64,000 nt of DNA from an uncultured bacterium (GTDB lineage: Bacteria; Verrucomicrobiota; Kiritimatiellia; CAIVKH01): positions 1 through 64,000 of the forward strand of contig CAIVKH010000279.1 in assembly GCA_903906425.1 (NCBI GenBank), written 5' to 3'. The translations under genes and the position numbers were made by a program. A model generated the notes under the pieces. It was not told the DNA's origin, did not search any database, and was given only the letters and a program-made list of their open reading frames with translations. This document shows, piece after piece, positions 1 to 63,670 of this stretch. Position 1 is the first letter of the stretch, and each line of letters begins with the position of its first letter.

Positions 1-231
1 AGCGCGGATTCCTGAGCTTCCAGGGTGTCCTGCATGCCGTCCAGTTTGGACAGCTCCGAGTTGTATGCCGTCAGCGATCCGGTTTTCGGATCGGTGATGG
101 CATTGATGCTGGCCTGAAAGGCCGGCACCGTGAGGCCGTTGCCGAGATCGAGATTTGGGTCGATCCCCGCAATGGCGTCTGCGCGCGTCTGCGCGTTTTG
201 CGCGGACTGCGATGAGCGTTTTGCTCTTGCC
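1..231 (-). CDS. Small hypothetical protein, 5' part only (runs off window start); begins MARAKRSSQSAQNAQTRADAIAGIDPNLDLGNGLTVPAFQASINAITDPKTGSL
   Basis: Not in ORF track. Reverse strand open from ATG at 231 to window edge, preceded by a GAGGAGAAA ribosome-binding site. Confidence 0.75.
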
Positions 232-345
232 ATGATCAATTTTCTCCTCAAACACTTCGAAAACGGGCCCGTCAACGTGACGGGTACCCGATTTCGAGCA
301 TATTCGACGTAAAACCTCAGTACATCGGGTTTCCCCCGATTTTCA

Positions 346-723
346 TCAAAGAAACGTCGCGACACTTGGAAGAAACCTCGCGAGGTTTCTTTGATGGCTC
401 GTGAGCTGTGGACGACGACACGCGAGGTTTTGTCGAGGCATCGCGATACTTCGTTGAGCTGTCGCGGTTACTCGATGAACTATCTTCATGACTCGTTGAC
501 GGATCGTGAGTGCTCGACGACTGGCTGTGTTCCGTCGTTGAGAAGTGATGATCCGTTAAAGAAGCATCGCGAGGTGGATTCGACGGATGATGACCGCTCG
601 ACGAAGCAGCATCCCCAATCTTTGACGGCTGATGTGCGCTCAACGAAATGCCATCGGTCTTCGTTGTCGGATTGCGAGCCGTCAACGAAGCACTTCGAGA
701 ATTTTTTGACGGATGCGCAGCCG
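346..723. repeat. Degenerate 21-bp-period tandem array, about 18 units, consensus near TCGWYGAMGSMTCGCGAGNNS; alternate units partly inverted (TCAACGA / TCGTTGA), suggesting a 42-bp higher-order period
   Basis: Manual 21-bp phasing; also visible as heptad periodicity in the spurious ORFs 317..832(-) and 391..786(+). Confidence 0.8.
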
Positions 724-881
724 TGCGTCGGCGAAGCGGACACTTTGGCGGAAGCTCGCAGCATCGCTTCCGCGATCCAAGAATAAGCGAGCAACGGAGT
801 GCGCACTCCACCCGAGGCGATGAGCAGGTCAAGAAATGATATCAGCCGGTCAATCGCGGCCATTTGTTTCATTGACGGATT

Positions 882-895
882 TTCCAATGATTGGA
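882..895. repeat. Single palindrome TTCCAATGATTGGA(t)
   Basis: Direct read; last base of the 15-mer deviates. Confidence 0.85.
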
Positions 896-944
896 TAGTT
901 CGAATTTGTTTCGGATTTCGAGTTTTTTCTGAAGTAGCTAAGAA

Positions 945-2531
945 ATGCTGTTCCACACCTGGGTCTTTTTCATTTTCTTCGCCGTCGTGTACGCGGTCTA
1001 TCTGCCGCTGCGAAAGAACAACGCGGCGATGAATCTTTGGCTGGTGATCGCCTCGTACTTTTTTTACGGCTGGAGGAGGCCCCATTACTTGCTGCTGTTT
1101 TTCGGCACGTCCGCCATCTTTGGCGGGGCTGCTTTTGTCCGCGGCGAGGTCACGGCTTATCCCTCGCCGATTGGGTTGGATGCTTCGCCGGATTACCGCG
1201 TGAGAGTGGACAACAAAGACATCTTCGTCCTCAAAAGCCCGGCGTTTTCGATGGCAACATTCGCTTTCACCGGTGAGGCGGAAGTCGTCGTGGATGTTCA
1301 GCATCAGATCAAGAACGTGGTCATTCGGCCATTGGCGTTGGGAATTAAAGCGACGGTGGATGAGAACAAACTGCGGTTTCGCATAAGCCGCCCGTGCCAT
1401 CTCGCGATTGAGGTTGATGACGATCTTCGGCGTCCGCTGTTTCTGTTTGCCAACGCGCCCGACGTGAGCGCGCCCCGGCAGGACGATCCGGGTGTTCACT
1501 ATTTTGAAGGAGGCCGGATTCATGACGTCGGCAAGATTGAATTGAAGGATAACGAAACACTTTATCTCGCCGGCGGCGCGGTGGTTCGTGGAATGATTCG
1601 CGCGAACCATGTCTCCGGTATCAGGATTCTGGGGCCGGGTATCCTCGATGCCTCGACGCGCAGCAAGCAGACCGAACTGGTGACGATGACTGATTGCAGG
1701 AACGTGGAAATCAACGGTCCCATCGTGCTCGGCAGCCATGGCTGGTCCATCGTGCCACGTCTTTCGGAGAACATCCGCCTGTACAATGTCAAAGTCGTAA
1801 GCTGGAGGGACAACGACGACGGATTCGATCCCGACAGTTCACGTCATGTGACGGTTGAGAATTGCTTCTTTCGCACCAAGGACGATTGCATCGCCGTGAA
1901 AGCGCACAGTCATTTTGAAAACGAAGGAAAAAACACCGGTGACAATCCCGACAGCTTCAACACCGAAGACGTGCTGGTGACGAAATCCACGTTCTGGAGT
2001 TCAGACGCGGGCCACGCGCTTACTGTGGGATTTGCAGTCAGCGCGCCCGTTGTGCGCAACGTTGTGTTCCGGGACTGCGATATCATCAAGAAAGAAAAGG
2101 GATGGGCCATGAGCATTGATAATCATGACCTCGGTTCGGTTGAAAATGTTCGCTTCGAAAACATTCACGTGGAGGACGGCTGCGACAAACTCCTGGCGGT
2201 GAAGGTGGCCTTTTCCGAATACAGCGCCGATTGTCCGTTCGAATATTTCCGAAATAATCCGGCGCGCAAAGAACCGAAAGGCGACGCGTGGCAGCAGGTG
2301 CTGCGCGAGAAACGCTCCAGCGCGCGTGGCACAGTTCGGAATGTATTGTTCAAGGACATCAAAATCGGCGGCGAACGGCTGCCGGGTTCTGATATTGTGG
2401 GATTCAGCCCGCACAATGATGTGAGCGATGTCGTTTTCGAGAACCTCACATTTCAAGGCAAAATATTGGACTCGCCAGATGCGGCAAATCTTCGGATTCA
2501 AAATGCCGCGAATGTTCGATTTGAAAAATAG
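945..2531 (+). CDS. Chimeric ORF: N-terminal ~58 aa copy of the MBOAT N-terminus fused to a GH28/pectate-lyase-like beta-helix glycosidase
   Basis: Residues 1-58 match the protein at 3686 (52/58 by eye); the remainder has GH28-like motifs (NVEINGPIV..., DNDDGFDPDSSRHVTVENCFFRTKDDCIAVKA). Confidence 0.75.
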   Translation: MLFHTWVFFIFFAVVYAVYLPLRKNNAAMNLWLVIASYFFYGWRRPHYLLLFFGTSAIFGGAAFVRGEVTAYPSPIGLDASPDYRVRVDNKDIFVLKSPAFSMATFAFTGEAEVVVDVQHQIKNVVIRPLALGIKATVDENKLRFRISRPCHLAIEVDDDLRRPLFLFANAPDVSAPRQDDPGVHYFEGGRIHDVGKIELKDNETLYLAGGAVVRGMIRANHVSGIRILGPGILDASTRSKQTELVTMTDCRNVEINGPIVLGSHGWSIVPRLSENIRLYNVKVVSWRDNDDGFDPDSSRHVTVENCFFRTKDDCIAVKAHSHFENEGKNTGDNPDSFNTEDVLVTKSTFWSSDAGHALTVGFAVSAPVVRNVVFRDCDIIKKEKGWAMSIDNHDLGSVENVRFENIHVEDGCDKLLAVKVAFSEYSADCPFEYFRNNPARKEPKGDAWQQVLREKRSSARGTVRNVLFKDIKIGGERLPGSDIVGFSPHNDVSDVVFENLTFQGKILDSPDAANLRIQNAANVRFEK

Positions 2532-2540
2532 GAGACCAAC

Positions 2541-3512
2541 ATGAACGCATCCGCAAATGCAGTCACCCGCCGCAACTTCATCCGCCTCGCGGCGCTGACG
2601 CCACTCGCCGCCGCCACATCGTCTTACGCGCAGACACCGGTCAAGCGTGCCGGCGGGCCGATGCTCAAGCCGACGCTCAACGCGTATTCCTTCCTCGAAA
2701 TGCTCAACGATAACATCGCCGACGCGAGCACAGGCATTGATCTCTTCGGCGTGTGCGACTTCTGCGCGAAGCACGACATCGAGGCCGTGGATCTCACCGG
2801 CTATTTCTTCCCCGGCTACCCGAAGGTGCCTGCGGACAGCTATGTGAACCGCATGAAGCGTTACACGCTCGACCGCGGCATCGTCATCAGCGGAACCGGC
2901 GTGCGCAACGACTTCGCCGTCGCCGATAAAACCGTGCGCGATGCGGGCGTGCAACTGACCAAAGAATGGATCGAGGCCGCCGCCCGTCTCGGCGCGCCGG
3001 TGATCCGAGTTTTCGCCGGTCCTCAACAACCGATCAAAGATTGGCAAACAGCCTCCGGCAACGCGCAGCGCGAGGATGTGGAGAAGTGGATGGCCGACTC
3101 CCTGCGCGCGTGCGCCGAACATGGCGAGAAGTTTGGCGTGATCGTCGCCGTGCAGAATCACGGCGATTTCCTCAGCACCGGCCCGGAACATCTCAGCCTG
3201 CTCAAGCGCGTTGATCACCCGTGGTGCGGCCCGCTCGTTGACACCGGTAAATATTTCACCGACGACCCGTATGCCGACATTGCGATGATGGTGCCGCACG
3301 CTGTGAACTGGCAGATCAAAGAAACACTCGGCAGTTCGCTGAAATCACCGCCCACTGACTTCAAGAAACTCGCGAAGATCATCCACGACGGCGGCTATCG
3401 CGGTTTCCTGCCCATCGAGACGCTCGCGATGGGTCGCAAAGACTACGATCCGTTCGTCGCGGTTGAGAAAGTTCTCATCGCGATGCGCGAGGCCGTTGAT
3501 TCTTTGAAATGA
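2541..3512 (+). CDS. Sugar phosphate isomerase/epimerase-like TIM barrel protein with Tat-type signal (TRRNFIRLAAL)
   Basis: Family-like sequence; RBS-like AGGAG upstream; twin-arginine leader. Confidence 0.85.
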   Translation: MNASANAVTRRNFIRLAALTPLAAATSSYAQTPVKRAGGPMLKPTLNAYSFLEMLNDNIADASTGIDLFGVCDFCAKHDIEAVDLTGYFFPGYPKVPADSYVNRMKRYTLDRGIVISGTGVRNDFAVADKTVRDAGVQLTKEWIEAAARLGAPVIRVFAGPQQPIKDWQTASGNAQREDVEKWMADSLRACAEHGEKFGVIVAVQNHGDFLSTGPEHLSLLKRVDHPWCGPLVDTGKYFTDDPYADIAMMVPHAVNWQIKETLGSSLKSPPTDFKKLAKIIHDGGYRGFLPIETLAMGRKDYDPFVAVEKVLIAMREAVDSLK

Positions 3513-3581
3513 GTCGCTGTGAAACCCGCTCGCTCGCTCCTCACCGTTCTGCTGCTGGCACCGCGCGCCACGCCTGTAAAT

Positions 3582-3660
3582 TTCAAATGGTTGGAAAACT
3601 GGAACTGCGAAACTTCCAATGATTGGAAATTGCGGCCGCGCTCTTTTCCAATCATTGGAG
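3582..3660. repeat. Palindrome array, three units at 3582 (degenerate), 3614 and 3646; 32-bp spacing
   Basis: TTCAAATGGTTGGAA, TTCCAATGATTGGAA, TTCCAATCATTGGAG. Confidence 0.9.
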
Positions 3661-3685
3661 ATTCCGCCCGGTATGGGGTCTAGCC

Positions 3686-5140
3686 ATGCTTTTCCACACC
3701 TGGGTCTTCTTCATTTTCTTTGCCGTCGTTTACGCGGTTTACCTGCCGCTGCGAAAAAACAACGCGGCGATGAATCTGTGGCTGATGCTGGCCTCGTACT
3801 TTTTTTACGGCTGGTGGAATCCGTATTACCTGCTGCTGCTTTTCGGAACGTCGGCGATTGATTACTGGATGGTGCTGCTGATGGAGCGCAGCCGCAGCCA
3901 TCGCACAAAAAAGATCTGGCTGGTCACGAGCCTCGTCAGCAATTTCGGGTTTCTCGGATTTTTCAAATATTCGTATTTCATCACCGACAATCTCAACGCG
4001 CTGCTTGCGCATCTCGGCGCGACGTTCCATCTGCCCGATCCGGTCGCGTATCCGAACGCGATGCTGCACGCGCTCGGCATGTCGGACAGCAGCCTGTTCG
4101 CGCATGTGCTGCTGCCCATCGGGATTTCGTTCCACACGTTTCAATCCATGAGCTACACAATTGACGCCTATCGCGGCACGGTCGAAACCGAGCGCAGCTT
4201 TGTCCGCTTCCTGTGCTTCGTTTCCTTCTTCCCGCAGCTCGTCGCGGGACCGATCGAGCGCGCGCGAAATCTGCTGCCGCAATTACAGGGCCGTCCGAAA
4301 ATCACGCGGCAGGACATCACCGAGGGGCTTTCGCATTTCCTCGTCGGCTACTTCAAAAAAGTCGCGCTGGCCGATTATCTCGCGATGTATGTGGACAAGA
4401 TTTACGGCTCGCCCGGCAACGCCGGCTCGCCCGCGCTGATTCTCGCGACCATCGCATTTGGCTGGCAGATCTATTTCGATTTCAGCGGCTACACCGACAT
4501 GGCGCGCGGCATCGCGATGATGATGGGTTTCCGGCTGATGCTGAATTTCAACAATCCGTACACCGCGACCGGACTCGGCGATTTCTGGGCGCGCTGGCAC
4601 ATCAGCCTTTCGACGTGGTTCAAGGACTATGTCTATTTCCCGCTCGGCGGAAACCGGAACGGAAAATGGAAAACGTATCGAAACATGTTGTTGACGATGG
4701 TGATTTCCGGCGTGTGGCACGGCGCAGCGTGGACGTTCATCATCTGGGGCGCGCTGCACGCCATCGGCCGCGTCGTCACGCGCGAACTTGAAGAGACAAA
4801 ATTCTATCGCGACCGCGTTCCGAAGCTTGCGAAACAAATCGGCGTCTTCGTTTTCGTTTCGTTCGCATGGATTTTCTTCCGTTCGCAATCGCTCGATGAT
4901 GCGTGGACCGTCGCGACGCGCATTTTCAGCGCCGGCTGGACGAACCCGCAATTTCCGTTGTTGATGGCCGCGATGATTCTCGCGGTCTGGATTTATCAGC
5001 TCGTTTTCGCCGACGAATCGCGCGTGCGAAACGTTCTCGCGCTCGCGCCGGTTCGCTTCGGCCTGGCCGCCGCGATGGTTTTGTACATCGCGATCATCGC
5101 CCAGCGAGGAACCCAGGCGTTCATCTATTTCCAATTCTAG
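3686..5140 (+). CDS. MBOAT family O-acyltransferase (AlgI-like)
   Basis: Polytopic protein with typical MBOAT motifs (WHGAAWTFIIWG, GLGDFWARWHISLSTWFKDYVYFPLGGNR). ORF track start 3623 lies in the repeats; ATG 3686 preferred. Confidence 0.93.
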   Translation: MLFHTWVFFIFFAVVYAVYLPLRKNNAAMNLWLMLASYFFYGWWNPYYLLLLFGTSAIDYWMVLLMERSRSHRTKKIWLVTSLVSNFGFLGFFKYSYFITDNLNALLAHLGATFHLPDPVAYPNAMLHALGMSDSSLFAHVLLPIGISFHTFQSMSYTIDAYRGTVETERSFVRFLCFVSFFPQLVAGPIERARNLLPQLQGRPKITRQDITEGLSHFLVGYFKKVALADYLAMYVDKIYGSPGNAGSPALILATIAFGWQIYFDFSGYTDMARGIAMMMGFRLMLNFNNPYTATGLGDFWARWHISLSTWFKDYVYFPLGGNRNGKWKTYRNMLLTMVISGVWHGAAWTFIIWGALHAIGRVVTRELEETKFYRDRVPKLAKQIGVFVFVSFAWIFFRSQSLDDAWTVATRIFSAGWTNPQFPLLMAAMILAVWIYQLVFADESRVRNVLALAPVRFGLAAAMVLYIAIIAQRGTQAFIYFQF

Positions 5141-5142
5141 CC

Positions 5143-6261
5143 ATGCAGGAACAACGAACATTCGACAAGGGACGGCCGGAAACAACGCGCGGAATCCGCG
5201 CGCACGATGCGTCGAACACGATGCAGCTTTCCGCAAGACAATGGTTCGGTCTTGCGGCGTTCGTTGTCGTCTTCACTTTCGCATTGCCTGTGATCTGGCC
5301 GTATTTCGAAAAAATACATTTCGACGCGGATTACCGGATTCCGTTCGAGCTGAGCAACGACTACTGGCTCTATGACCGGCTGACGCGCGAGGCTGTCGCG
5401 AAATGCGACACGCTGATTGTCGGCGATTCCGTCGTCTGGGGCCAATACGTCAAACGCGATCAGACGCTGACGCATTATCTGAACGAGCGCGCCGGTCACG
5501 AACGATTCGCGAATCTCGGACTCGATGGCGCTCACCCGGCGGCGCTCGCGGGCCTTCTTGAACATTACGCGTCCGGCATTCGCGGAAAGACTGTTCTACT
5601 CGAACTCAATCTGCTTTGGCTCTCCTCGCCGCAACGCGATTTGCAGGAAACGAAGGAATTCGATTTCAATCATCCCGCGCTAGTGCCGCAATTCTTCCCG
5701 CAAATTCCGTGCTACAAAGCCGACGTTGCGACACGGCTCGGCAATGTCGTTGACCGAAACAGCGCGTTCAATTCGTGGACGCATCATTTGCAGCAGGCAT
5801 ATTTCAATCGCTCGTCGATTCCCGAATGGACGCTCGAACATCCGTACGAAAACCCGCTCCGGGCGATAACGATGAAGGTTCCGCCATCCGGCAATAGACT
5901 CCGGCACAAACCTGAGCCATGGACCAAGCAGGGAATCACCCCGCAGGACTTCCCGTGGGTTGCGCTGGACTCATCGCTTCAATGGCTCTCGTTTCGCCGC
6001 GCCATCGAGATTCTCCGGCAACGCAAGAATCGCGTTGTCGTCTTGCTCACTCCATTCAATGAGCACATGCTCACCGCCGAAAGCCGCGCGCGATTTGCGA
6101 AGCTGAAATCTGAAGTCGAAGCATCGCTCCGCGAAAACAAGATCACCTTCATCACGCCGAATCTGCTGCCGAGCGAATCGTATGCCGACGCGAGCCATCC
6201 GCTCTCTGTCGGCTACAAGCAGCTCGCGGACGAAATCTTCGCAAGCGGTTTGTTCCAGTGA
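5143..6261 (+). CDS. Membrane-anchored SGNH/AlgJ-like protein, probable partner of the MBOAT acyltransferase
   Basis: N-terminal TM, CDTLIVGDSVVWG motif, directly downstream of the MBOAT gene. Confidence 0.75.
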   Translation: MQEQRTFDKGRPETTRGIRAHDASNTMQLSARQWFGLAAFVVVFTFALPVIWPYFEKIHFDADYRIPFELSNDYWLYDRLTREAVAKCDTLIVGDSVVWGQYVKRDQTLTHYLNERAGHERFANLGLDGAHPAALAGLLEHYASGIRGKTVLLELNLLWLSSPQRDLQETKEFDFNHPALVPQFFPQIPCYKADVATRLGNVVDRNSAFNSWTHHLQQAYFNRSSIPEWTLEHPYENPLRAITMKVPPSGNRLRHKPEPWTKQGITPQDFPWVALDSSLQWLSFRRAIEILRQRKNRVVVLLTPFNEHMLTAESRARFAKLKSEVEASLRENKITFITPNLLPSESYADASHPLSVGYKQLADEIFASGLFQ

Positions 6262-6299
6262 TTGGAAACTTTGCGCAGCGGAAATTTCAATGATTGGAA
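6253..6299. repeat. Palindrome pair at 6253 and 6285 (32-bp spacing), both with one mismatch
   Basis: TTCCAGTGATTGGAA; TTTCAATGATTGGAA. The first contains the stop codon of the upstream CDS. Confidence 0.88.
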
Positions 6300-6305
6300 C
6301 TGCCG

Positions 6306-7133
6306 CTACTTTTGTAGCGGCGCGGAACGGGCGCAGCGGAAACCGTAAACGTCGTAGCCGAGGCAAACGTCGGGGAGAACGGGGGCGTCGCTGGAGCGGA
6401 AGAACGACGTGCATTTTTCTGGTGTGGCGGACCAGTGGCCGCCACGGATCACGCGCTTGTCGCTTTTCTCCGGCCCGCGCGGATCGGCGGGCGGGCTGTT
6501 CTGATAATAGTCCGCGGCATAGAAATCGTTGCACCACTCGGCGACGTTTCCGTGCATGTCGCAAAGGCCCCAGACATTCGCCGGTTTCTCGCCGACAGGG
6601 TGGGTCTTCTTGGCCGCGTTGTCCTTGAACCATGCGTTGTTTTTCAGCGCGGCGGCGTTGTCGCCGAATGAATATGCGGTGGTCGTTCCGGCACGACACG
6701 CATATTCCCATTCCGCCTCGGTCGGCAGCCGATAGCCGGTCGCCGCAAAATTACATTGCCATGTTTTCTCGTCGTAGCACGGCGTCAGGCCTTCTTTGAG
6801 AGAACGGGCGTTGCAGTATTTTGCCGCCTGCGTCCAGCGCACGCGTTCGATCGGATTTTTGTCGCCGTCGAATTTTGCCGGACAAATTCCCGTGAAATCG
6901 CTGAACGACTCCTGCGTGACCTCGAACTTGTCCATGTAGAAGCTGCTGATGCTGACACGATGAACCGGCTGGCAATCCGCGCCACCGGCCGTTGAACCCA
7001 TTTGAAATTCACCGGCTGGAATCAAAATCATTTCGACACCGGAGGCGTTTGTGATGATTTGCGTCGCAGCATTCGCTGAGCGAAATGCGGCGAACGTCAG
7101 GCACAAGGCGGTGAGAATTAGTTTTTTATTCAC
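6306..7133 (-). CDS. SUMF1/formylglycine-generating-enzyme-family protein, secreted
   Basis: Motifs MILIPAGEFQMGS, RLPTEAEWEYACRAG, GNVAEWCNDFY, RVIRGGHWS, YGFRCAR. Confidence 0.9.
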   Translation of the reverse strand: MNKKLILTALCLTFAAFRSANAATQIITNASGVEMILIPAGEFQMGSTAGGADCQPVHRVSISSFYMDKFEVTQESFSDFTGICPAKFDGDKNPIERVRWTQAAKYCNARSLKEGLTPCYDEKTWQCNFAATGYRLPTEAEWEYACRAGTTTAYSFGDNAAALKNNAWFKDNAAKKTHPVGEKPANVWGLCDMHGNVAEWCNDFYAADYYQNSPPADPRGPEKSDKRVIRGGHWSATPEKCTSFFRSSDAPVLPDVCLGYDVYGFRCARSAPLQK

Positions 7134-7135
7134 GT

Positions 7136-9367
7136 TCAGTCCGTTGATGCGCCTTCGTGGCCGAATGCGTGATTAAGCATCTCAAGCGTTCGCTCGCGCA
7201 CGGCGCGGGCGAATTCGAATTCGGCATCGGATTTCGCTTCCAGTATCCGGTAGCCCGCGCGCTGGCGAAGCTCTTTCGTGATAAAACGAAAATCGCCGAT
7301 GGCGTGATCCTGGCTGCCGCCGATGGTTCGCGTGTCGCGGCCGATCTGTTTGGCGATTTCGGCTTTGTTCGTTTCGGAGCCGTCGATCAGCGTGACGACT
7401 TTTGCGATCAGTTTCTTTGCGGCTTCGGGATTTCGCTCGGCGAGTTTGAGTGCGTCGCTACGTTTCTCGAACTTGGCGAGCACGCCGGAGAATTCGTCAG
7501 CGAGCGATGCGAGCTGCGGCTGTGAGGCTTTCTGCTGCGCGATGAAGTCGCCGGTCTTCTTCCGCCACGCCTGATACTCGTCAATCCGGCTACGGATGCC
7601 GAGGACGAAGTTGTCCATCGCGTCGAGTCGTTCGAGTAGGAACTTATTCTTCGCCTTTTCCTCGCTGTCGCTGAAGACGCCCTCGTATTCCGCTGTGACG
7701 GCGCAGGTCGCCGGATAGCGGTCGCGCTGCACGCGGTTGATGACGAGAACATCCAGGAGCTTCTCCTGCGGTGATCCGGCGAGCGCTTCGCGTAAGACAT
7801 CAAATACGCCCCACGCCTTCGGAGGACTGCCGCTCGCCTTTTGAAACGGATAAACGATTGCGAAATCATCGCCGCGATATTTCAAGCCTTCCGGCTCTTC
7901 AAATTTTGTCCGGCGCAGGAATGCGCTGCTGCCGTCAATGCAAACTGGATAGGCGAATGTTCCGCGCGCCGATGTCCAAACGGTCCGCGTCTTCGGCTTG
8001 TTGAAGCTCACGCCGAAACTGTCCCAATCGCTTTCCGATCGCCGGACCGGCATTTTCCAGGAATCAATCAATCCGTCTTCGCGCCGGAAATCCGTTCGCC
8101 AGAGCGCGCGGAAAGGAATCTGCCAATCCAGTTTCGTGTCTTTCACCGGATCGAGTTCGGCGATCTTCTTGCGGCACCAAATGGAAGGCGCGGACAGAAC
8201 CGCGACCGTGACGGTCGAAGCTTTCGGACATCCAATTTCCGCCGCCGCAATCGCTCCGTTCTCACGCGCAAGCCGCGCGGACTGCGCTGTGGAACGCCAC
8301 GCGGCGACGGCGATGGAATTGCCCTCGTCGCCGAGCAACGCCACCAAGTTCTCGGCGGGCAAATGCAGATTTGATTGATGAATCGCGCCGGGATCTACGA
8401 CGAGGTCGCCGGCAAAAAGGTCCGGCACGATGGCGTAGCGGCTGCGGCTTTCAACGAGCAGACTCTCCATGCCATCGCCGGCGGTCACCTCAATGAAAGG
8501 CTTGTTCTTTCGGATCGCAAAACGCGTGATGATCTTCCTGCCAGCCGCACTGGCTGACTGCACTTCAACCAAGACTTTCGCCGCAGTGTTTTCAATCACG
8601 GTGAATGCGGTGATTGTCTTTGCAGCATCGTCTTTGCGGGCGATGGGCACGAGTGCCGGGCCCTTGGTTGCCGGACATTGCACTTCCGCAGTGCGTGCGC
8701 CTTTGCGAGCAGTCAGCGCGAGATAGTTGTTGCTGACAAGAAGCGCATCGGCGGTTTGCATCAGATGGACGCCGGTGGCCGCATCGTCTTCGCGGGCCAG
8801 TTTCTCGAACGGGACAAATTCGCCTTCGCATAGACGGAACATGTCGGCGCGGAACTCGCAGTTGGGCTGTTCACAACTGATGTAGGCGAACCAGCCCTGC
8901 GGGAAATCCTTCTCCAGGGTGAATGTCGTATGCAGTTCGGTCCACTTGTCCGGCGTGATGGTGAACGGTCCGCCCTTCGCGGCGCGGTCGTACGGTTTTG
9001 CGCAGCGTTCGATCTGGAGACTGACGGTCACCGGTTTGCCGACGGATTTTGCGAGGATGGAGAACGAGTAGGTCTTGCCCTTCGTTCCGGCTGCCACCGT
9101 CTGTCCGAATTGTACGCCCCAGTCGGCAACGCGGCCGATGTGAACCAACGCACTCCGTTCGCCCTCGGCGGCGTCTGTGCGATCAACGTGAAATTCTGCC
9201 TCCGTATTTCCGCCCCGGTCCAACTTCCACTCATCGCTGCCGGGGCCGACGATCTCGAAACCGGCATTCGAAAACTTGTTTTCCTGCGCCTCTGCGAATG
9301 CCGGCGCAAGCGGGACGACGGCAAATGCGATGCCGATGAAAAGACGCAACAGATCATTTCGTTTCAT
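7136..9367 (-). CDS. Large secreted hypothetical protein
   Basis: 743-aa ORF with signal peptide (FIGIAFAVVPLAPAFA); just downstream of the sulfatase. Confidence 0.8.
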   Translation of the reverse strand: MKRNDLLRLFIGIAFAVVPLAPAFAEAQENKFSNAGFEIVGPGSDEWKLDRGGNTEAEFHVDRTDAAEGERSALVHIGRVADWGVQFGQTVAAGTKGKTYSFSILAKSVGKPVTVSLQIERCAKPYDRAAKGGPFTITPDKWTELHTTFTLEKDFPQGWFAYISCEQPNCEFRADMFRLCEGEFVPFEKLAREDDAATGVHLMQTADALLVSNNYLALTARKGARTAEVQCPATKGPALVPIARKDDAAKTITAFTVIENTAAKVLVEVQSASAAGRKIITRFAIRKNKPFIEVTAGDGMESLLVESRSRYAIVPDLFAGDLVVDPGAIHQSNLHLPAENLVALLGDEGNSIAVAAWRSTAQSARLARENGAIAAAEIGCPKASTVTVAVLSAPSIWCRKKIAELDPVKDTKLDWQIPFRALWRTDFRREDGLIDSWKMPVRRSESDWDSFGVSFNKPKTRTVWTSARGTFAYPVCIDGSSAFLRRTKFEEPEGLKYRGDDFAIVYPFQKASGSPPKAWGVFDVLREALAGSPQEKLLDVLVINRVQRDRYPATCAVTAEYEGVFSDSEEKAKNKFLLERLDAMDNFVLGIRSRIDEYQAWRKKTGDFIAQQKASQPQLASLADEFSGVLAKFEKRSDALKLAERNPEAAKKLIAKVVTLIDGSETNKAEIAKQIGRDTRTIGGSQDHAIGDFRFITKELRQRAGYRILEAKSDAEFEFARAVRERTLEMLNHAFGHEGASTD

Positions 9368-9384
9368 TTCTCGTCGCCTCGTTT

Positions 9385-10812
9385 TCAGGGTGAATATGGG
9401 ACTGTTCCGGTGGCATCAACGCGATAGCCCCACTTCGCAAGGTATTCATCGCCCGGCCGGAATTCATCGCCGCGATCTTTCAGTTTTTGTTTCAGCTTCA
9501 CGTCGAGTTCGGATTGCAGCGCGGCGGACTCCGGCTTGTTCGCGAGGTTGTTCGTCTGAAAAGGATCGGCCTGGTTGTCGAAAAGCAGCCACGGGCCGGT
9601 GAGGTCGCGGACAAACGTGTATCGCGTCGTGCGGATGCCGCGATATTCCCTGCCGCCGTTCTTTCGCGTCCACTGGCCGAACGGCGCGATGCACTCGATC
9701 ACCACGCAATCGTCGCCGGGATTTTTTCCGCCGCGGATGTGGGCGCTGAAATCGAGACCTTGAACGCTTTTCGGAATTGCGACACCGGCGAGGCCGAGGA
9801 CGGTCGGCATGAAATCCTCGGAGCTGATGACCGTGTCGAGTTTGCGCGCTTCGATGCCCGCGCCGCTGACGAGCAGCGGCACGCGGATGCTTTCGTCGTA
9901 CGGCTGCTGCTTGTTGCGCCCGCCGTGCGAACCGAGCAGGTCGCCGTGATCGGACGTGAAAATGAAAATCGTGTTTGTTTCGAGGCCGGCGCCGCGAATC
10001 GCCGCGCGCAGATTGCCGATGCAGTCGTCGAGCGCGGAGCAGTGCGCGTAATAGCCCGACATCATTTTCTGCGCCGCCTCGCGCATTTCGGGCGGGACAT
10101 TCTCGCGGACCTTCAACGAGGCGGGCGGATACATCGCGCGATATTTTTCCGGCGCGGTCTGATAGGGATCGTGCGGCGGCCCCCACGCGAGCACCAGGAA
10201 GAACGGCTTCGCGGACTTCGCGCGGCCGTCCAGAAACTTCTTCGCGTCGTCCGTCTGCGCGATCGCGTCGTAGCCGGTCCACAGCTTCTTTTCGGGATCG
10301 TCGCCGTCGTAATAAAACGAGTGGTTATAATCGTGCGTGCATTCGAGAACCTTCCAGTAATCGAATCCCTGCCGCCGCTCGCGCGGGATGAAGCTCGACC
10401 GCCCGTGGCCATCAACGTGCCACTTGCCAATGTAGCCCGTCTCGTATCCGGCATCGCGCAGCACCTTCGCGACCGTCACCGAATCGGGCGCGAGCGGCAC
10501 GTCGTTCATGAAGACGCCGTGCGTGAGCGCGCGCTGGCCGGTCAGCATCGTCGCGCGCGTCGGGCAGCAGACGGGCAGCGCCGAAATCGCGTTCGCAAAA
10601 TTCACGCTGCACTTCGCGAGCGCGTCCATGTTCGGCGTCTTCACGTTCGGATCGCCCGCAAACCCGAACGCCTGCGCGCGCCACTGGTCCGCGATGACGA
10701 CGACGATGTTGGGCGGCGCGGCCGGTGGCGCGGCATCGCACATTTCCAATGATTGGAAAAGTGCGGAAGCCAAAATTCCAATGATTGGAAAAAGGCGGAA
10801 GGCACATTTCAT
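9385..10812 (-). CDS. Sulfatase (arylsulfatase family)
   Basis: NIVVVIADQWRAQ and CxPxR-type motif CCPTRATMLTGQ. 5' end of the ORF includes the palindromes. Confidence 0.93.
   Translation of the reverse strand: MKCAFRLFPIIGILASALFQSLEMCDAAPPAAPPNIVVVIADQWRAQAFGFAGDPNVKTPNMDALAKCSVNFANAISALPVCCPTRATMLTGQRALTHGVFMNDVPLAPDSVTVAKVLRDAGYETGYIGKWHVDGHGRSSFIPRERRQGFDYWKVLECTHDYNHSFYYDGDDPEKKLWTGYDAIAQTDDAKKFLDGRAKSAKPFFLVLAWGPPHDPYQTAPEKYRAMYPPASLKVRENVPPEMREAAQKMMSGYYAHCSALDDCIGNLRAAIRGAGLETNTIFIFTSDHGDLLGSHGGRNKQQPYDESIRVPLLVSGAGIEARKLDTVISSEDFMPTVLGLAGVAIPKSVQGLDFSAHIRGGKNPGDDCVVIECIAPFGQWTRKNGGREYRGIRTTRYTFVRDLTGPWLLFDNQADPFQTNNLANKPESAALQSELDVKLKQKLKDRGDEFRPGDEYLAKWGYRVDATGTVPYSP
10744..10790. 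repeat. Palindrome pair at 10744 and 10776 (32-bp spacing), inside the 5' end of the sulfatase ORF
   Basis: Two exact TTCCAATGATTGGAA. Confidence 0.95.
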
Positions 10813-10878
10813 GGCCGGAGAATCGCACGCGGGATCATTGCTGGCAAGCAGACGGCCACCGGCATTTTTGCGGCGCGA

Positions 10879-11616
10879 TCAGGGCTGCGTCTGGACGGCC
10901 CGGTAAAACAATATGGAGGTCCCGGACGAGCCGCCGCTCACCGACAGGTTTGTCGTCGGAGAGCTGGCGACGAAGTTTGTCACGAGTTTCCAGTTGCCGG
11001 AAATTGGATCGCTCGTCTGCATCAACGCCGTCGTCCCGCCCACTTTCAAATTCGTCAGCTTGATCGTCGGCGAAATGCCGGCGGACAAAACTTCGACGAA
11101 GGGGCCGGGGTCAGGCGGCTGGACCGGAACGAACACCTGGAGCGAATTGAACGGCACGGGGCCACCGCCGCTGCCGGCCGCCAGCGCGGTGGCCGCGTCC
11201 ATGCTTGTGTTGGTGAAGACCGAGTAAATGAAAATGTAGGTGCCCTGCCCGGGCGCAAGATCAACGCCGGGATTGGTGATCGTCGTCACGTTGTCCGTGA
11301 TGGCCGCGGTCCAATGCTGCGGATGCGGAAGAAACTTGACGCGGTACACGCCCTGGTTGGTGCCGGCCGGATACGAGAATGAAACCAGGTTGTTGGCCGG
11401 AATATTGTTTGTGCTCGTGTTGACCAACTGGAATCCGATCTGCAATTCCGGGCCGGCCGAGTTGGTGTCAAACGATCCCGTTTCGCAACCGGTGCCCCAC
11501 AAATGGTTCGTCATGGCCGGATCGTCCGCCCGGGCCGATGGCAACGCACAAACCACGGCGGCCGTCACCAGCATCGCGCACAGTCTGCACAATTGTTCTG
11601 CCCCATTCATTCGCAT
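10879..11616 (-). CDS. Secreted hypothetical protein
   Basis: 245-aa ORF, signal peptide (LVTAAVVCALPSARA). Confidence 0.75.
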   Translation of the reverse strand: MRMNGAEQLCRLCAMLVTAAVVCALPSARADDPAMTNHLWGTGCETGSFDTNSAGPELQIGFQLVNTSTNNIPANNLVSFSYPAGTNQGVYRVKFLPHPQHWTAAITDNVTTITNPGVDLAPGQGTYIFIYSVFTNTSMDAATALAAGSGGGPVPFNSLQVFVPVQPPDPGPFVEVLSAGISPTIKLTNLKVGGTTALMQTSDPISGNWKLVTNFVASSPTTNLSVSGGSSGTSILFYRAVQTQP

Positions 11617-11697
11617 CGCCGGAAGTTATCATTCCGCGGCCTCGATACAAGCGCGCGGCTTATCCCGTAAAATTGACCGGAGTCTTCTTGCGCGCTT

Positions 11698-11744
11698 TTC
11701 CAATCATTGGAAAAGCCCGCGCGCCGGAATTCCAACGATTGGAA
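11698..11744. repeat. Palindrome pair at 11698 and 11730 (32-bp spacing)
   Basis: TTCCAATCATTGGAA; TTCCAACGATTGGAA. Confidence 0.93.
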
Positions 11745-11853
11745 AAAGACGAAAGCCGGTTTTTTATCTCCGCAGACTTGCCCGCTCCGCGCGTGCAGGC
11801 GAGCGGCGGCCATCGCCGCCCGGTTGACGCATCCAGACGCTTCTCTTCTGGCA

Positions 11854-12126
11854 ACTCACACCCGGCTTTCGAATGCAGACATTCGTCTTGCAGTCACCGC
11901 TACCAAACTTCTCCCCGCTGGCACCCGGCTTTCGAATGCCTGCAATGGACTGGCCGTCCCAGACGAACAGCTTTCCTCCCCTGACAGCCGGCTCATGGCA
12001 CCTGACATTTGTCATCTGACCATTTCATGCGGACTTCCGAGCGCTGACAGTGGACTTTTGAATACTGACATTCGACTCGCGGCCATCAGCAATGGACTTT
12101 GGGCCGCTGACGGTCGTCTCGTGAGC
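11854..12126. repeat. Degenerate 21-bp-period tandem array, 13 units, consensus near GCTGACANNCGGCTTTCGAAT; hints of 63-bp higher-order period
   Basis: Manual phasing; CACCCGGCTTTCGAAT recurs exactly 63 bp apart. Confidence 0.8.
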
Positions 12127-63623: not shown

Positions 63624-63670
63624 TTCCAATCATTGGAAAACGCGCCCGCGCAAACTTCCAATCATTGGAA
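63624..63670. repeat. Palindrome pair at 63624 and 63656 (32-bp spacing)
   Basis: Two exact TTCCAATCATTGGAA in a co-directional gap. Confidence 0.95.

Follow-up and report, generated by a model that had tools for sequence, protein, structure and literature searches.

We analysed a window of 64,000 nucleotides, that is, the whole stretch from position 1 to position 64,000 of contig CAIVKH010000279.1, which belongs to the metagenome-assembled genome (MAG) of an uncultured Kiritimatiellia bacterium. Near its start lies an open reading frame (ORF), at 945–2531, in which the beginning of a gene for a membrane-bound O-acyltransferase (MBOAT) is joined in frame to an enzyme resembling glycoside hydrolase family 28 (GH28). 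This is probably a real, old, selected-for gene fusion. We assign a probability of about 0.58 to the reading that the ORF is a genuine chimeric gene whose MBOAT piece starts at the ATG at 945 and serves as a membrane-targeting signal for a periplasmic enzyme. The parts of the fused gene and its counterpart are as follows (G095, G108 and L085 denote three related genomes described below; TM, transmembrane helix).

945–2531, plus strand: ORF of 528 amino acids with an ATG start; MBOAT-like N-terminus and GH28-like enzyme.
897–944, plus strand: leader of the fused gene, which resembles that of the G095 MBOAT gene (local score 40, reached by 0 of 500 dinucleotide shuffles).
945–1118, plus strand: codons 1–58 of the fusion, corresponding to the MBOAT gene start (TM1, TM2 and the start of helix 3); 152 of 174 nucleotides identical to 3686–3859.
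1044–1118, plus strand: codons 34–58, which hold all six replacement changes (WWNPYY to WRRPHY).
1119–1148, plus strand: what remains of the end of the ancestral signal peptide, FGGAAFVRGE, from alignment with the G095, G108 and L085 orthologues.
1149–2531, plus strand: mature GH28-like enzyme, with a beta-sandwich and a right-handed beta-helix; Asp292, Asp313 and Asp314 are kept.
3686–5140, plus strand: intact MBOAT gene (PF03062) of 484 amino acids with its ATG at 3686; it survives as the full-length relative of the duplicated 5' end.

Aligned without gaps, the two copies of the MBOAT 5' end agree at 88% of nucleotides and at 52 of 58 amino acids, and the similarity ends at codon 58 (GTSAI). 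The 58 codons contain 14 silent and six replacement differences, distributed over the three codon positions as 6/1/15, with dN = 0.058 and dS = 0.50 (NG86). The original prediction, made by reading the sequence, had claimed just such a repeat, with mostly silent changes and a stop at GTSAI, and had taken the ORF for a partial duplication fused in frame to a GH28-like enzyme; the alignment and the Pfam results bear out both claims. When the genome was searched with the repeat, the match was far beyond chance (E = 4e-57), and no third copy of the MBOAT 5' end was found anywhere in the 6.66-Mb genome. In an all-against-all search of the same-strand ORFs of the window, the fusion and the MBOAT gene were the sole pair with a strong N-terminal match. 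The dS of 0.50 is near the whole-gene value of 0.59 between the window MBOAT and that of G095, which represents another family of the class, and the copies are therefore old, not recent.

The profile search of the MBOAT gene gave 91.2 bits for PF03062 (cut-off 27). In the fused ORF no MBOAT catalytic domain was found, PF00295 was the only Pfam family, and the N-terminal 86 residues had no Pfam match. The fusion thus shares with the AlgI/DltB-like MBOAT family (PF03062) the first 58 residues and the helix pattern and, when G095 is compared, also the leader, but has neither the catalytic domain nor the conserved WWNPYY motif.

The PF00295 (GH28) match covers residues 240–411 (54.9 bits, cut-off 22.9). 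The three catalytic aspartates of the GH28 NTD and DD motifs are present: D292 (in NDDGFD), D313 and D314 (in KDDC) are invariant in 20 homologues and align with the exo-polygalacturonosidase 3jur, the nearest solved relative by sequence; the frame is intact, and all family-invariant residues, including K319, are kept. With GH28 and clan GH-N (PF00295; NCBIfam PglA, exo-poly-alpha-galacturonosidase 3jur), the enzyme has in common the Pfam match, the beta-helix and the three aspartates. It differs by an added N-terminal beta-sandwich, as in its best structural matches, by its replaced N-terminus and by the lack of two features of classical, pectin-acting polygalacturonases, the histidine of GHG and the RIK motif: the fusion and its three orthologues have GHA, at a position not conserved across wider homologues, and no RIK. 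The enzyme domain is modelled by AlphaFold with pLDDT mostly between 90 and 98. The best fold matches of this GH28-annotated enzyme are the GH49-type isopullulanase 3wwg and the dextranase 1ogm, which have the same plan of beta-sandwich and beta-helix. By sequence the enzyme would be placed in GH28, and by its predicted fold nearest to the GH49 type; the fold indicates clan GH-N no less than GH28.

The closest relatives of the enzyme are found in G095 (67% over residues 55–528), G108 (67%) and L085 (62%), the last being a Verrucomicrobia subdivision 3 MAG. All three orthologues open with what reads as an ordinary Sec signal peptide (MNKNLMALYCSSCARLVALVAGAVSGVAALAGGVVTAYP, MPPRFPACLVFAALLLAAVSSGTALGAGVVTAYP and VKKTIFYFIFIMPIWVGFFGVNAIKADIITY), shortly upstream of a conserved (V/I)(V/I)T(A)Y motif, and the MBOAT piece is absent in 3/3; the signal peptides (charged n-region, hydrophobic core and cleavage site) were judged by reading and hydropathy in G095 and L085 and by reading in G108. 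The MBOAT piece is therefore the newcomer. In the fusion, a signal-peptide-like pattern was recognised by reading only in an internal segment, residues 44–67, and FGGAAFVRGEVTAYP, directly after codon 58, aligns with the tail of the orthologue signal peptides. The alignment places the join inside the old signal peptide, whose n-region, along with part of the hydrophobic core, appears to have given way to the MBOAT start. This agrees with the earlier claim that a likely signal peptide had been exchanged for membrane helices, although it was the front of the signal peptide that was replaced. No further example of the fusion turned up among the matches listed, from searches that took in up to 346 genomes of the class, or among the genome contigs searched, and in the present data the fusion is apparently confined to one species genome.

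Partial-duplication fusion is a known kind of event, and other bacterial fusions that arise by partial duplication or deletion likewise join the 5' end of one gene in frame to another. Here, in distinction to such fusions generally, a multi-helix membrane-protein start takes the place of a signal-peptide n-region and half of the h-region. A literature search for a published MBOAT fusion gave nothing directly relevant.

When G095, G108 and a homologue from a planctomycete served as outgroups for the tree and for polarisation, the fusion piece grouped with the window MBOAT as its sister (UFBoot 77–78, eight shared derived sites), with branch lengths of 0.115 and 0.046, respectively. All six replacements fall on the fusion branch and within codons 34–58 (P = 0.004, or 0.009 for a two-sided test in which either end may be chosen). 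Codons 1–33 carry silent changes only (P = 0.018–0.001 under neutrality for three to five fusion-branch changes), and codons 34–58 show the mix of silent and replacement changes that neutrality predicts; few changes are involved in all this, and the test for clustering is post hoc. FYGWWNPYY, a motif that nearly all of the fetched MBOAT relatives retain, reads FYGWRRPHY in the fusion owing to the replacements W44R, N45R and Y47H, which put two arginines and a histidine ahead of the third helix. The clustering of replacements and the silent-only codons 1–33 suggest translation of the N-terminus and its subsequent re-tuning, probably for enzyme export. More tentatively, and less probably than not, the captured polytopic N-terminus and its leader may have been re-tuned by W44R/N45R/Y47H to act as a new signal for export or anchoring, with TM1 under purifying selection, so that a secretion signal was born by fusion and topology inversion.

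In the AlphaFold model (mean pLDDT 88.7), three helices of low confidence (residues 2–22, 29–41 and 47–58) precede the confidently modelled beta-sandwich and beta-helix, in line with the membrane helices claimed for this part of the protein. Hydropathy is strong for TM1, moderate for helix 3 (48–66) and weak for TM2. The sequence RRPHY-LLLFFGTSAIFGGAAF-VRG, formed by helix 3 and its flanks, looks like a signal peptide. Positive charges tend to remain on the cytoplasmic side of the membrane (the positive-inside rule). R23 and K24 follow TM1, and R44, R45 and H47 precede helix 3, a charge pattern for which this rule favours a cytoplasmic position of residues 22–47 and export past helix 3.

The homology, the junction, the ancestral signal peptide, the direction and clustering of the changes and the intact enzyme core can be read from the sequence itself; for the start codon, topology, cleavage, export and deletion we infer the following course. 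The leader and first 58 codons of a close MBOAT relative would have been joined in frame within the hydrophobic core of the Sec signal peptide; the donor would most simply be a second MBOAT copy beside the enzyme gene, and a deletion would have made the join. Translation would start at ATG 945, TM1 (residues 2–22) would insert with the N-terminus outside, and residues 22–47, with their positive charges, would remain cytoplasmic. The hybrid helix 3 (48–64, MBOAT LLLFFGTSAI plus the signal-peptide tail FGGAAF) would act as an internal signal or anchor, and the enzyme would be exported to the periplasm, where it would stay anchored or be cleaved near residues 63–67.

The MBOAT type is sporadic, with 87–88% protein identity in G095 and G108, in another family of the class, and this distribution of the cassette suggests horizontal movement and makes a former second copy plausible. 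Together with its partner gene, the MBOAT gene forms a cassette (3686–6261) whose MBOAT protein has at most 48% identity to members of its own family among the matches listed and which is likely horizontally transferred. A donor elsewhere in the genome was rejected, no other close copy having been found. A tandem enzyme-to-MBOAT duplication with loss of the first copy is the other simple route besides the deletion; it predicts isomerase remnants upstream of 882, where none were found, and may be less likely. The genes concerned are:

2541–3512, plus strand: xylose-isomerase-like TIM-barrel protein (PF01261), the next gene downstream of the fusion.
5155–6261, plus strand: partner gene of the MBOAT cassette, 368 amino acids, without a Pfam match; in G095 and G108, too, the MBOAT gene is followed by an orthologue of it.

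The 48-base leader of the fused gene scores above the best of 500 dinucleotide shuffles (34) in the comparison with the G095 MBOAT leader, so that homology to MBOAT extends upstream of the ATG, contrary to the original prediction, in which it began at 945. The window MBOAT's own leader gave no signal against that of G095, and no likeness between the two window leaders was found beyond the palindrome. The window MBOAT leader is taken up by a palindrome array ending 25 bases upstream of the ATG, and the G108 MBOAT leader by palindromes of G108's own type. Judging from these sequences, the fused gene seems to keep the older MBOAT leader, apparently with its control region. The palindromes next to the two genes are:

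882–896: single copy of the genome-wide palindrome TTCCAATSATTGGAA, adjoining the leader of the fused gene.
3582–3660: three palindromes arrayed every 32 bp within the intact MBOAT gene's leader.

A palindrome upstream of both copies had been noted earlier, with recombination there as a plausible mechanism. It is not specific to these two genes: there are 3,044 TTCCAANNNTTGGAA sites genome-wide (backwards control, 0), and the palindromes are therefore no specific evidence for recombination here. Recombination at them was rejected as a specific mechanism, the sequences between palindrome and ATG also being unlike in the two copies. In the window, 46 of 47 palindromes lie in arrays of two to four at 32 or 33 bp, with differing spacers of 17–18 bp; the palindrome at 882, which has no neighbour at 32–33 bp, is the only singleton and would fit a breakpoint at that array.

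The roughly 3,000 TTCCAATSATTGGAA palindromes amount to about one array per 3 kb (window sites 882, 3582–3660, 6253–6299, 10744–10790 and so on to 63624–63670). In related genomes the same flanks occur with another core, often GSC (TTCCAAGSCTTGGAA) in place of TSA; counts in relatives range from 0 to 1,339. The GTAG/CGTC tag of REP elements is absent from the consensus TTCCAATSATTGGAA, which differs in tag and RAYT association from that class of elements. At Y1_Tnp loci, exact palindromes numbered 0 at L141 (own genome), 0 at L142 and 1 at L140 (G040). TTCCAA was not found in PMC3733652, and a literature search on the palindrome gave nothing directly relevant.

The MBOAT piece might instead be an in-frame relic outside the mature translation unit, the protein beginning at an internal start (TTG 1089 behind AGGAGG, GTG 1044 or ATG 1029) with a short signal-peptide-like N-terminus. 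The candidate site is:

1074–1091, plus strand: AGGAGG, as tandem rare AGG arginine codons, 9 bases upstream of the in-frame TTG 1089; candidate internal ribosome site.

The AGGAGG (1074–1079) is absent from the MBOAT copy, and AGG is rare in this genome (2.0 per 1000 codons). The spacing to TTG 1089, the neutral-looking changes in codons 34–58 and the likeness of the helix 3 segment to a signal peptide favour such a start. We consider it unlikely, however, because codons 1–33 are constrained, the frame is open without indels across all 58 codons, and a start at TTG 1089 would drop all positive charges of the n-region; moreover, Shine-Dalgarno use in this genome is low (10/44 ORF starts vs. 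35/296 internal ATGs). Less likely still is a real fusion without export, in which the helices keep the MBOAT topology (N-terminus out, C-terminus in), the enzyme is cytoplasmic or degraded and the gene is decaying. The MBOAT topology inferred from charges does have helix 3 running from outside to inside, and the fusion branch is about 2.5 times as long as the MBOAT branch; yet the enzyme has retained its frame and its invariant residues, the catalytic-type aspartates and K319 among them, and the replacements before helix 3 do not look random, adding positive charge that favours export.

That assembly wrongly attached the 5' end of another, related organism's MBOAT gene to the enzyme gene is very improbable, although the genome is a MAG of 383 contigs, the site is near a contig end, and the 12% divergence of the copies is of the size found between MBOAT genes of related species. 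A foreign MBOAT joined intact would be expected to carry the (near-)invariant WWNPYY, and its loss in the fusion argues against a misjoined intact gene. The join is in frame and inside a signal peptide, and the genome search turned up no shared repeat at the junction. The same species-specific palindrome, hardly found in relatives, occurs on either side of the junction (882; 3582–3660), which indicates that both sides belong to this genome.

Several points weigh against an exported chimeric protein translated from ATG 945. This ATG has no preceding Shine-Dalgarno-like motif, the low hydropathy of TM2 leaves room for other topologies, and the constraint on codons 1–33 could predate the fusion, from its time inside a full MBOAT. 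The leader comparison is based on one orthologue, G095, and the G108 leader differs. The junction is known from one MAG assembly, with 5.4% estimated contamination, and lies 1.1 kb from the contig end; the deletion route would have left no trace.

Elsewhere in the window, a degenerate stretch with 21-bp periodicity, open on both strands, occupies 366–770, with a truncated minus-strand ORF on one side and the fused gene on the other (self-match 0.44 at 21 and 0.48 at 42, against 0.16–0.26 at other tested non-multiples). Rfam gave no match in window positions 1–12000.

The fusion does not amount to a new system. If our reading is correct, it would be a traceable natural case in which a secreted protein exchanged its export signal for a segment of a polytopic membrane protein and in which the relatives show both the state before the exchange and the direction of change, and it would open signal-sequence evolution and the positive-inside rule to testing by simple reporter fusions.

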